Shown here piece by piece: positions 48,838-52,486 of a stretch of 64,000 nucleotides of DNA. How positions within the stretch are numbered: the first letter of the stretch is position 1; each line of letters opens with the position of its first letter. Source of the DNA: Halorientalis regularis (GTDB lineage Archaea > Halobacteriota > Halobacteria > Halobacteriales > Haloarculaceae); contig NZ_JALJCL010000001.1 of NCBI RefSeq assembly GCF_023698535.1, positions 1 to 64,000 of the forward strand, given 5' to 3'. The position numbers and the translations under genes were made by a program. Under the pieces are notes generated by a model, which saw only the letters and a list, made by a program, of their open reading frames with translations, searched no databases and was not told where the DNA came from.

Positions 48838-49164
48838 ATGGGAGTTCGGCCACCACAACAGGACGACGACGAACCGGATGCCATCGAGTTCGGCATCGCG
48901 GCGCTGGACGCCCGGCTCTCGGAGGCAGGGGTGGCGTTCCCGGCGGACAAAGACAGCATCGTCGCCACGCTCGGCGACCGCAAGATTCCCTACAACGCGA
49001 CCGGGAACACGGTCACTGTCGAGGAGGCCATCGACCGCTCGGGCAAGGAGTACTTCGAGACCGAACAGGAATTCCTGAACGCGCTTCACCCGGTGTTCGA
49101 GGAGATGCGCGAATCGGCTTCCTCGAGTGTCCTGATGCAGCTGCGAGCGCTCGTCCCCTTCTAA
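48838..49164 (+). CDS. DUF5789 family protein
   Basis: A 108-residue protein. 'IEFGIAALDARLSEAGVAFP' , 'GDRKIPYNATGNTVTVEEAI' and 'FETEQEFLNALHPVFEEMRE' match haloarchaeal DUF5789 proteins. These have unknown function, perhaps regulatory, and occur in many copies per genome. Its stop overlaps the convergent aglJ stop by 4 bp. Confidence 0.8.
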   Translation: MGVRPPQQDDDEPDAIEFGIAALDARLSEAGVAFPADKDSIVATLGDRKIPYNATGNTVTVEEAIDRSGKEYFETEQEFLNALHPVFEEMRESASSSVLMQLRALVPF

Positions 49165-50204
49165 TCGCGTTCGTCGGCGGACGCGAGTTCGTCGGCCTCC
49201 GGGTCGCCGTCCGCGTCGGCTGCCCCGTTAGCCGGTGCCCGTGGGGCAGGGTCCTCGGCCACCGTGTCGGGTCGCTCACCACCCAGTTGCTCGGCCAGTT
49301 CTTCGAGTCGGCGGGTCTGCTCGCGGTTCAACGCGACGATCATGTCCGAGAGGACGCCGAAGATCAGGAGCTGCACCCCGACGAGAATCGAGAACACGCT
49401 GACGATAGCGATGACCTCGTGTGACGTGCGGGGCGGAACGAACCAGTCGTAGGCGACGTACCCACCCAGGACGAACCCGACGAGCGAACTGAGTGCGCCG
49501 ACGCTCCCGAAATAAAAGAGCGGGTTGTTCGTCTTGGCCATCTGGTACAGCGTCAGGATGATCGTCGCGCCGTCACGGAACGGGTGGAGGTTCGTCTCCG
49601 ATTCGTCGGGTCGGGCTTCGTACCGGATCGGGACCACCTCCGTCCGGACGCCGTGTTTGACGCACTCGACGGCCATCTCGGTCTCGATCCCGAACCCCGT
49701 TTCGGTGAGTGTGAGCCGCTCGGCCGACTCGCGGGTGAACGCGCGATAGCCGCTCAGGATGTCTTCGAGGTTCCGGCCGTGAATCCAGCGGAACGCCCGG
49801 TTGATGATCCGGTTGCCCGTCCTGTTGAGCCGGGACATCGCCCCCGACTCCATGTCTGCGAACCGGTCGCCGATGACGTGTTCGGCACGCCCGGAAAACA
49901 GCGGTTCGAGCATCGCCTCGGCGTCCTCGACGCGGTACGTGGCGTCGCCGTCCAGCATCAGAATGTAGGGGGCCTCGACGTGGCGGAGCGCCTCGCGGAC
50001 CGCCTGCCCCTTCCCCGTCCCCGACTGGACGATCACCCTGGCCCCGTGGTCGCGGGCGATATCGCGGGTGCCGTCCGTGGAGTCGCCGTCGATCACGAGG
50101 ATGTTCTCGAAGCCGTGCTCGGAGAAGGACTCGATGACAGTACCGATAGTCTCGGCCTCGTTGAGCGTCGGCACCAGCACACAGACCTCCGAGCGGTCGG
50201 GCAT
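49161..50204 (-). CDS. aglJ: S-layer glycoprotein N-glycosyltransferase AglJ-like (GT2)
   Basis: A 347-residue GT2 enzyme with a C-terminal membrane region. 'VCVLVPTLNEAETIGTVIES', 'ILVIDGDSTDGTRDIARDHG', 'YILMLDGDATYRVEDAEAML' (DxD-like) and 'GYRAFTRESAERLTLTETGF' fit AglJ, which in Haloferax adds the first hexose to dolichol phosphate in N-glycan assembly. Two spans ('SVGALSSLVGFVLGGYVAYD', 'IVSVFSILVGVQLLIFGVLS') and a long acidic tail follow. It borders a cluster of glycosyltransferases and a flippase, which supports a glycan role. A plain polyprenyl-phosphate mannosyltransferase is the alternative. Confidence 0.82.
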   Translation of the reverse strand: MPDRSEVCVLVPTLNEAETIGTVIESFSEHGFENILVIDGDSTDGTRDIARDHGARVIVQSGTGKGQAVREALRHVEAPYILMLDGDATYRVEDAEAMLEPLFSGRAEHVIGDRFADMESGAMSRLNRTGNRIINRAFRWIHGRNLEDILSGYRAFTRESAERLTLTETGFGIETEMAVECVKHGVRTEVVPIRYEARPDESETNLHPFRDGATIILTLYQMAKTNNPLFYFGSVGALSSLVGFVLGGYVAYDWFVPPRTSHEVIAIVSVFSILVGVQLLIFGVLSDMIVALNREQTRRLEELAEQLGGERPDTVAEDPAPRAPANGAADADGDPEADELASADERD

Positions 50205-50279: not shown

Positions 50280-50393
50280 TCACCCCTCGTCGCGGTGTTC
50301 GCTCATGTGTTCCCACATCTCGGTACACCCGCACCCGTCGCTCACGCCGTCCAGATGCTCGTCCGCCTCCTGTTGTGCAAGGTCGTCCGACAT
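50280..50393 (-). CDS. 37-residue Cys-Gly-Cys small protein
   Basis: A short frame starting MSDDLAQQEADEHLDGVSDG, followed by CGCTEMWEHMSEHRDEG. It is very acidic, with a CxC motif and several His/Glu residues that could bind a metal or act in redox. I believe similar tiny Cys-Gly-Cys proteins are widespread in haloarchaea. A good TATA (tatttatc on this strand, 50432-50439) is about 45 bp upstream and shared with the divergent TrmB-family gene. A perfect palindrome lies in the predicted 5' leader, abutting the ATG. Confidence 0.65.
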   Translation of the reverse strand: MSDDLAQQEADEHLDGVSDGCGCTEMWEHMSEHRDEG

Positions 50394-50394
50394 A

Positions 50395-50415
50395 GTTACT
50401 CAGTCTGTGAGTAAC
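50395..50415. promoter_or_regulatory. Palindromic operator candidate matching the TrmB motif
   Basis: GTTACTCA-GTCTG-TGAGTAAC is a perfect 8-bp palindrome with a 5-bp spacer. It contains TACT-N8-GAGTA, which fits the TACT-N(7-8)-GAGTA motif published for Halobacterium TrmB. It lies upstream of the TATA of the trmB-like gene but between TATA and start codon for the divergent small Cys protein gene, predicting activation of the first and repression of the second. Confidence 0.6.
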
Positions 50416-50431
50416 CAGTTCGTTGACGAGC

Positions 50432-50439
50432 GATAAATA
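50432..50439. promoter_or_regulatory. Shared TATA element of a divergent promoter
   Basis: gataaata is a TATA-like element readable on both strands. On plus it would start transcription near 50462, about 20 nt before the TrmB-family ATG; on minus near 50410, about 18 nt before the small Cys protein ATG. Confidence 0.5.
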
Positions 50440-50482
50440 CCTTTCGGCGAGTTTACAAGGCCGGCCGGCGACAGGCCGAGGT

Positions 50483-51331
50483 ATGACCGACGAAGCGGTC
50501 GGCCTGCTGGACCGACTCGGCCTGACCGAGTACGAGGCGACGGCGTTGCAGGAGTTGCTGACGCTGGGACGGACGACGGCCCCGAACCTGGCACAGGCGA
50601 CGGGCATCCCGAAGGCCCGCATCTACGGCGTGCTGGACTCGCTGTCGGATCGCGGATTCATCAAGATCATCCCCGGTCGGCCCAAGGAGTACCAGCCGAA
50701 ATCGCCCGACACGATCCTGGAACGGGCCAAAGAGAACCGACGCCAGGAGTTCGAGGGATTCGTCCAGGAACTCGAGGAGGTGCGCGAGGAGTTCCTCGCG
50801 GAGTTTCAGCCACGCTTCGAGCGCGCCAGCGAGGACATCACGCCGACCGAAGAACTGTTCCACGTCGTCGACGTGGGCCAGCCGAGCGAACGCGAGACCC
50901 GCCAGCTCTACCACGAGGCCGACGAACGCGTCCGGATCATCACCAAGAGTTTCGAGTACTTCGACTCGGTTCGGCCGGCCTTCGAGGACGCCATCGACCG
51001 CGGGATCGACGTGGACGCGCTCTTTCTCCATCCCGACCTGCTGGAAGCCGAGAACCGGCCGATCCAGGCCGAGATCGTCGCGGAACTCCGGGCGACGTAC
51101 CCGTCCGTCGACCTGCGGTTCAGCGAGGAACAGCTCCCCTGGCGCGGGACCGTCGCCGATCCGAGCATGGATTACGAGGCCGGACGCGCGATCATCCTCG
51201 TCGAGGAGAAAGACGTGCCCCTCCACATGCGCCAGGCCGCACTGACCGACAACGGGTCGTTCGTCGCCGGACTCCAGCGGTACTTCGATCTCGTCTGGGA
51301 ACACGAGAGCGTCGCCGAGTATCCGGACTGA
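50483..51331 (+). CDS. TrmB-family transcriptional regulator
   Basis: A 282-residue protein. The N-terminal winged helix 'LLDRLGLTEYEATALQELLT' and 'LAQATGIPKARIYGVLDSLS' followed by DRGFIKIIPGRPKEYQP is the TrmB signature. A coiled coil (about residues 75-115) leads to a C-terminal effector domain ('TRQLYHEADERVRIITKSFE', 'AFEDAIDRGIDVDALFLHPD') like the PLD-type sensor of haloarchaeal TrmB-like regulators. TrmB proteins sense sugars and control central and glycan metabolism. ATG 50483 gives the conserved start. It precedes a glycosyltransferase/flippase pair it may control. Confidence 0.88.
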   Translation: MTDEAVGLLDRLGLTEYEATALQELLTLGRTTAPNLAQATGIPKARIYGVLDSLSDRGFIKIIPGRPKEYQPKSPDTILERAKENRRQEFEGFVQELEEVREEFLAEFQPRFERASEDITPTEELFHVVDVGQPSERETRQLYHEADERVRIITKSFEYFDSVRPAFEDAIDRGIDVDALFLHPDLLEAENRPIQAEIVAELRATYPSVDLRFSEEQLPWRGTVADPSMDYEAGRAIILVEEKDVPLHMRQAALTDNGSFVAGLQRYFDLVWEHESVAEYPD

Positions 51332-51379: not shown

Positions 51380-52486
51380 ATGCGCGTCCTCTATCTCACC
51401 GAAGAGGCCATCTCGTTTTCCGACGCGATGGTCCGAGGGGGCGCGATTCACGTCCGGAACGTCGTCACCGGTCTCCGTGACCGGGGCCACGACGTGACCC
51501 TGCTCGACTGGAACGACGCGCCGGAACGCCCGTTCCAGCTCTCGGTGTCGCCACGGACCCGGTTCGTCGACGGACCGCTCCGGACGCTCGGCCACGCCGT
51601 CCGGATCGGCGACCGACGGAACGTGGACGTGATCGTCTCGAAGACGCGCAAGACCTACCTCCCGGGACTGTTCGCCGCCCGACGGTTGGGCGTCCCCCAC
51701 GTCGTCCACGTCGGGTCGAGTCTGGACCCGCCGGTCGAGGGCCTGAGGGGACGCCTCGATCTGGCGTCGTTCGGGGCACGGCTCCGCGCCCCGCACGACG
51801 GCTACCTCGTCGTCTGTGCTCACATCGGCGACCAGTTGCGGGAGCGTGGTGTCGCTCCCGACCGCATCTTCGACGTTCGCAACGCCGTCGACGTGGACCG
51901 GTTCCACCCGGACCGGGTACCGACGCCGCTGGCCGACCGGTTCCGGGACCAGCTCCCGGCGGATGACGGACTCGTGGTCGGCTTCGTCGGCGGCCTCCAG
52001 CCCTACAAGGGCCTCGACGACTTGGCGGACGCACTGGAGCGGACGGAACGGGACTGGCACCTGCTGGTGGCCGGCGACGGGCCGGATCGGGACCGGCTGG
52101 AAGGACGATTCGGCCAACAGGCGACGTTCCTCGGCTCCGTCCCGTACGAGCAGATCCCGGCGCTGTACCACGAGTTCGACGCGTTCGCGCTCCCCTCTCA
52201 CACCGAGGGACTGCCCCGCGTCGTCCTCGAAGCGCAGGCGACGGCCACACCGGTGGTCGCCACTCGCGTCGGCGGTGTCCCGGAAGTGATCGAGGACGGC
52301 GGGACGGGCCTGCTCTGTGACCCCCACCAGCCCGCCGATCTGGCGGACGCGCTGGACCGACTGACGCCGGACGCGGGGGAGCGCGACCGTCTGGGCCGGC
52401 AGGGCCGGGCGGCCGTCGAGACCGAGTTCTCCTGGCCGGCGCTGTACGAGCGGTACGAGCGGGACCTGCGGCAGGTGATCGAATGA
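51380..52486 (+). CDS. Glycosyltransferase family 4
   Basis: A 368-residue GT-B enzyme. The N-terminal acceptor domain has 'VRGGAIHVRNVVTGLRDRGH'. The nucleotide-sugar half shows 'VVGFVGGLQPYKGLDDLADA', 'WHLLVAGDGPDRDRLEGRFG', 'FLGSVPYEQIPALYHEFDAF' and the Glu-rich 'PSHTEGLPRVVLEAQATATP' (EX7E-like). It transfers a sugar from a nucleotide donor; donor and acceptor are unknown. Its stop overlaps the flippase ATG by 4 bp, so saccharide building and export are coupled. Confidence 0.92.
   Translation: MRVLYLTEEAISFSDAMVRGGAIHVRNVVTGLRDRGHDVTLLDWNDAPERPFQLSVSPRTRFVDGPLRTLGHAVRIGDRRNVDVIVSKTRKTYLPGLFAARRLGVPHVVHVGSSLDPPVEGLRGRLDLASFGARLRAPHDGYLVVCAHIGDQLRERGVAPDRIFDVRNAVDVDRFHPDRVPTPLADRFRDQLPADDGLVVGFVGGLQPYKGLDDLADALERTERDWHLLVAGDGPDRDRLEGRFGQQATFLGSVPYEQIPALYHEFDAFALPSHTEGLPRVVLEAQATATPVVATRVGGVPEVIEDGGTGLLCDPHQPADLADALDRLTPDAGERDRLGRQGRAAVETEFSWPALYERYERDLRQVIE

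Follow-up and report, generated by a model that had tools for sequence, protein, structure and literature searches.

Among the closest described counterparts of the locus reported here is the TrmB system of Halobacterium, where the regulator recognises the motif TACT-N7-8-GAGTA (PMC4158304). Proteins of the TrmB family are reported to follow a position rule, with activation from sites upstream of the BRE/TATA elements and repression from downstream positions (PMC4158304). OxsR of Haloferax volcanii is also a haloarchaeal TrmB-family HTH regulator whose activation or repression correlates with site position; it is a thiol sensor of one domain, and its motif is CG-rich (PMC9426492). TrmBL2 of Pyrococcus and Thermococcus is an abundant chromatin protein with many sites. 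With respect to the sugar discussed below, sulfoquinovose is reported in a haloarchaeal S-layer glycan, and its biosynthesis pathway is described as awaiting identification (PMC8241124); Haloferax volcanii is said to be without an Agl3 homologue (PMC4245038).

The window, i.e. the whole 64-kb stretch of DNA analysed, carries at positions 50395-50415 a perfect palindrome with 8-bp arms, GTTACTCA-GTCTG-TGAGTAAC. We consider it highly probable that this is the operator of the adjacent TrmB-family regulator, here named TrmBx, which in haloarchaea would be dedicated to the control of sulfoquinovose and surface-glycan genes and would repress the small gene beside the palindrome and a distant sqdB gene, encoding a putative UDP-sulfoquinovose synthase. 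The features of the region are the following:

49161..50204, minus strand: aglJ, glycosyltransferase of S-layer N-glycan assembly (TIGR04182, 473 bits, cut-off 325)
50280..50393, minus strand: gene of a 37-aa small protein with the core HLxxVxDGxGCxEIWExxSxxR (ORF list)
50395..50415, no strand: candidate operator, the palindrome GTTACTCA-GTCTG-TGAGTAAC (direct reading and genome-wide pattern counts)
50433..50446, minus strand: putative BRE/TATA CGAAAGG-TATTTAT of the small gene (read from the sequence)
50452..50459, plus strand: TATA-like TTTACAAG of the regulator gene, 28 nt before its ATG (read from the sequence)
50483..51331, plus strand: TrmB-family regulator TrmBx, 282 aa (PF01978 at 69 bits, AlphaFold model, Foldseek, phyletic co-occurrence)
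51380..52486, plus strand: glycosyltransferase-like gene (ORF list; assigned by sequence appearance)

The position of the palindrome and the nature of its neighbours, a 37-aa ORF on the minus strand and a TrmB-family gene on the plus strand, agree with a preliminary description of this DNA, as seen from direct reading of the palindrome, the ORF list and profile matches. Contained in the palindrome, at 50397-50413, is TACT-N8-GAGTA, which has the form of the Halobacterium TrmB-type motif and is present as a single exact copy in the window. The 14-base form GTTACTC-N7-GAGTAAC, which is the operator consensus, also has one exact copy in the window, with runners-up at three mismatches; its central bases vary between genomes. 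The promoter elements previously taken for one bidirectional TATA are present, and are better read as two separate ones (50446-50433 on the minus strand and 50452-50459 on the plus strand). Among related sites, alignment of the flanks commonly shows a BRE/TATA-like stretch at the equivalent place. The edge of the palindrome is 1 nt before the ATG of the small gene, and the transcription start of this gene is predicted at about 50409, inside the right arm. On the other side, the operator centre is about 50 bp upstream of the TATA element of the regulator, the transcript of which is predicted to be leaderless. As aglJ follows 75 bp downstream of the small gene on the same strand, the two are possibly co-transcribed, although aglJ may have its own promoter; in Halapricum and Halorhabdus, aglJ is not downstream of the small gene. 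The glycosyltransferase-like gene, about 50 bp downstream of the regulator, possibly shares the regulator's operon.

The palindrome is a conserved operator and not a chance occurrence. In the 4.03-Mb genome to which the window belongs, GTTACT-N9-AGTAAC has two exact sites and its reversed control none, and these exact operators are confined to the aglJ/TrmBx locus (C11:50395) and the start codon of a sqdB-like gene (C45:54250). Copies with three mismatches (C40:16373 and C41:219693) were dropped because they equal the control count in number. The exact operator usually occurs twice per genome of about 4 Mb, and one to three exact sites are found in 98 of 146 same-family genomes, with reversed-control matches in 6 genomes. 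The preliminary description had proposed conservation upstream of regulator orthologues as a test of the site, and the site is indeed conserved there: at 17 of 27 orthologue loci (L005-L012, L014, L015, L018, L021-L025 and L030), GTTACT-N9-AGTAAC precedes the regulator match by no more than about 135 bp, and at L019, L026 and L031 the palindrome is further upstream of the regulator, beside the small gene. It had also proposed a genome scan, and here the loose motif and the full operator part ways. TACT-N8-GAGTA is near background (19 places in the genome against 13 reversed-control matches on the two strands together), and of its 19 places no fewer than 13 are within coding sequence and not at promoters of carbon metabolism, whereas the full operator is well above background. 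A glycolysis/gluconeogenesis regulon, one of the pathway links suggested earlier, was rejected on these figures; a link with sulfosugar and N-glycan genes is supported.

Nearly all inspected sites fall into two classes. Class A sites are found at the small gene, which has TrmBx and/or aglJ as neighbours; the regulator is usually divergent and aglJ downstream. Class B sites precede, by 2-5 nt, the start codon of a SqdB-like gene, which encodes a 395-aa SDR enzyme. With identical contexts removed, 66 distinct sites belong to class A and 53 to class B, and their centres are variable. The class B enzyme has a near full-length match to the UDP-sulfoquinovose synthase profile NF041015 (E 1.8e-106; 356 bits, below the NCBIfam equivalog cut-off of 575) and can be aligned with plant SQD1 structures along most of its length (E 3e-69). 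From these matches we infer an enzyme like SqdB/Agl3 that would produce UDP-sulfoquinovose, an activity that is putative for haloarchaea. Directly downstream of sqdB is a second SDR gene, with a third nearby, and TrmBx adjoins this cluster in several genera (L022, L024, L025 and L067). A single palindrome is shared by a divergent small gene and sqdB in L101, and two of the epimerase genes of the set also have sites, the third in L238 and the second in L243. Many genomes (L038, L024, L160 and others) place the small gene's start codon within the right arm of the operator (GTGAGTAAC or ATGAGTAAC), which gives a protein with MSN as its first residues. The locus had been described as a switch at the border of a glycan locus; this switch is recast as a regulon of the small gene, the regulator and the distant sulfoquinovose-synthase operon, joined in one genus by an S-layer glycoprotein gene.

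TrmBx belongs to the TrmB family by its TrmB-type winged HTH (PF01978, 68.9 bits with a cut-off of 25.6, residues 9-75), in which the invariant Tyr48 appears to be the counterpart of the Tyr with which TrmB proteins are reported to contact DNA (PMC4158304). It has in common with TrmB of Halobacterium salinarum (VNG1451C) this type of HTH, the half-sites TACTC/GAGTA and their 8-bp spacing, and a position-dependent logic is plausible for TrmBx too. However, it is a different gene. The PF11495 sugar-binding domain is absent from TrmBx in a profile scan, the match to the haloarchaeal TrmB equivalog NF047392 is 40 bits for a cut-off of 500, TrmBx falls far short of every TrmB equivalog cut-off, and the canonical sugar-sensing TrmB is a separate gene of the same genome (NF047392 at 618 bits, with PF11495); for these reasons canonical TrmB was rejected as the orthologue. 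The operators and regulons also differ: GTTACTC-N7-GAGTAAC is longer than TACT-N7-8-GAGTA and symmetric, and it usually has two sites per genome at sulfosugar/N-glycan genes, in contrast to the carbon-metabolism regulon of H. salinarum TrmB. The earlier naming of the palindrome as a TrmB-type site thus holds for the family of the regulator and for the half-site and spacing, and not for the sugar-sensing TrmB system.

In an AlphaFold model, TrmBx consists of a winged HTH, a long helix and a PLD-like domain; the model was used for fold class only because its confidence is modest (pLDDT 76.7, pTM 0.49, 23 sequences). The order of Foldseek matches is TrmBL2, then TrmB, then PLD-fold proteins. TrmBL2, the best structural match (8e-14), is similar in length and, like TrmBx, combines an HTH with a PLD-like domain and has no separate sugar-binding extension. 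Identity is 20-22%, however, and in place of the many sites of a chromatin protein TrmBx appears to have 1-3 specific operators. OxsR was rejected as an orthologue, given that TrmBx is a multi-domain protein of 282 aa with a different motif (the TACTC/GAGTA palindrome) and no cysteine, and therefore not an OxsR-type thiol sensor.

Co-occurrence was followed in 292 class-level genomes, of which 99 carry TrmBx, 111 carry sqdB and 89 carry the exact palindrome; p-values ignore kinship, which inflates them. The exact site is present in 86 of the 99 TrmBx carriers compared with 3 of 193 non-carriers (Fisher 1.5e-55, kinship ignored), and sqdB in 98 and 13, respectively. Among genomes with sqdB, 85 of 98 have the exact site if TrmBx is present, and 0 of 13 if it is not. 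Within genus g26 alone, the site is found in all 9 species with TrmBx and in none of the 26 without. Palindromes in three TrmBx-less genomes (G167, G192 and G208) are off-consensus and were taken as chance, since the inner C/G of the consensus is absent. Near-copies follow the same division (Mann-Whitney p 0.0008, kinship ignored): in 12 inspected genomes, out of the 13 TrmBx carriers without an exact site, the sqdB start shows 11-13 of 14 matches; of eight inspected genomes with sqdB and without TrmBx, five are at background with 6-8 of 14 matches, and L181 and L186 show decayed copies with 10-11 of 14 matches at the same position. Because loss of the regulator goes with loss of the site, TrmBx (50483-51331) is very probably the protein that binds the operator.

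In G338 (L175:4867-7089), sqdB consists of two pieces that are far apart, and the operator has decayed to 11/14, the lowest of the 12 genomes mentioned above. G012 (L043 and L080) has an intact sqdB operator and no small-gene site; its TrmBx, directly upstream of sqdB, is a fragment interrupted by an internal stop. G216, the last of the eight genomes with sqdB and without TrmBx, keeps a 13/14 operator there (L184:1195-1215), and TrmBx was not detected at E <= 1e-60; recent loss of TrmBx, an assembly gap or a missed gene could account for this exception.

The near-perfect site of G216, together with the correlative nature of phyletic evidence, is what can be said for the binding of a different regulator, co-inherited with TrmBx and sqdB and having TrmBx as just a target. 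We consider this very unlikely, as TrmBx is the only gene adjacent to the site across genera and is a DNA-binding protein of a family that uses TACT/AGTA half-sites, and sites decay where it is missing. Binding by the canonical glucose-responsive TrmB, as part of a gluconeogenesis regulon, would explain why half-site and spacing equal TACT-N7-8-GAGTA (PMC4158304), and Halobacterium TrmB has been linked to S-layer glycosylation (PMC4245038). It is nevertheless very unlikely: the canonical protein has its own separate gene here, the genome's copies of the loose motif are close to background in number, the many same-family genomes with exactly two palindromes have them at the aglJ/sqdB loci, and the site vanishes where TrmBx is absent. 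Furthermore, none of the 15 ChIP peaks of TrmB in Haloarcula hispanica is listed at an aglJ or sqdB/epimerase gene (PMC10817205). An RNA hairpin (a terminator or leader element) in place of a protein-binding site is the sort of reading that perfect palindromes immediately before start codons can invite, since they are able to form hairpins, but it can practically be dismissed. At sites of either class, transcription is predicted to begin within the palindrome or at its edge, such that a hairpin would be only partly transcribed; no T-run follows, and the right arm contains the start codon in many genomes.

TrmBx, as the preferred binder, would attach to GTTACTC-N7-GAGTAAC as a dimer or higher oligomer. 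At sqdB and the small gene, the site is just downstream of the BRE/TATA and covers or abuts the predicted transcription start, a position from which TrmBx binding should block recruitment of RNA polymerase. Given the position rule of the family (PMC4158304), repression of both genes by TrmBx is likely and activation of its own gene possible. For the small gene, the repression put forward in the preliminary description fits an operator over the gene start with the predicted transcription start in the palindrome. For the divergent regulator gene, judged by position, a site about 50 bp upstream of the TATA is compatible with activation or with no effect. There is a considerable chance, somewhat below even, that TrmBx instead represses both divergent genes and does not activate itself: one palindrome serves a short divergent region, and autoregulation is reported for some members of the family (PMC4158304), but the distance to the regulator's TATA corresponds to a reported activating position for TrmB-family proteins (PMC4158304). 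Release of TrmBx from DNA would presumably follow the sensing of a sugar-derived ligand by the PLD-like C-terminal domain; our guess for the ligand is a sugar nucleotide or sulfosugar intermediate.

Through this operator, a probable UDP-sulfoquinovose-synthase operon can be named in many haloarchaea, together with its regulator, DNA site and small partner protein. It also presents a TrmB paralogue with a regulon of just a few sites, although TACTC, the half-site of the global sugar regulator, has been retained. A full-text literature search, with most subscription papers outside its scope, returned nothing joining TrmB with AglJ, and novelty is thus provisional; within the same scope, no earlier description of the proposed sulfosugar-glycan control circuit was found. 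A review that mentions both TrmB and sulfoquinovose treats Halobacterium TrmB and not TrmBx.

The small-protein family (50280-50393 in the window; L194, L195 and L197-L216), paralogues included, is present in 276 of the 292 haloarchaeal genomes, and specificity to the aglJ/TrmBx locus was therefore rejected. The "CxC" first noted in this protein is not a feature of the family: among 29 aligned members only the second Cys, C23, is invariant, with Ala, Ser or Asp in place of the first in many genera, so that a CxC zinc protein was also rejected. The common paralogue precedes a DUF7119 gene and, in 12 of 20 examined regions, has a ferredoxin-nitrite/sulfite-reductase-like gene (PF01077) no more than about 1.1 kb away, a count that leaves out a third paralogue without the DUF7119 gene. 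As UDP-sulfoquinovose synthase consumes sulfite (PMC4245038), a guess is that the small protein acts in sulfite or sulfur handling. A broader and speculative scheme, which we hold to be rather unlikely as a whole, is that TrmBx senses a metabolite of the UDP-sulfoquinovose pathway and jointly controls the sqdB operon, aglJ, the one-Cys micro-protein and, in one genus, the S-layer glycoprotein gene; the micro-protein, with paralogues commonly beside nitrite/sulfite reductase, might then deliver or handle sulfite for sulfoquinovose synthesis.

The genus in question is g7, two species of which have an extra operator (L236:3001-3021 and L237:3001-3021) about 320 nt upstream of an S-layer-glycoprotein-like gene and downstream of a distal TATA-like element; the gene product has NF041335 domain matches and a halo signal peptide. 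A membrane-protein-like ORF has another extra palindrome about 570 bp upstream (L240:3001-3021; G353:C37:5774), and sugar epimerase-like and UDP-sugar dehydrogenase-like ORFs occur in the same region.
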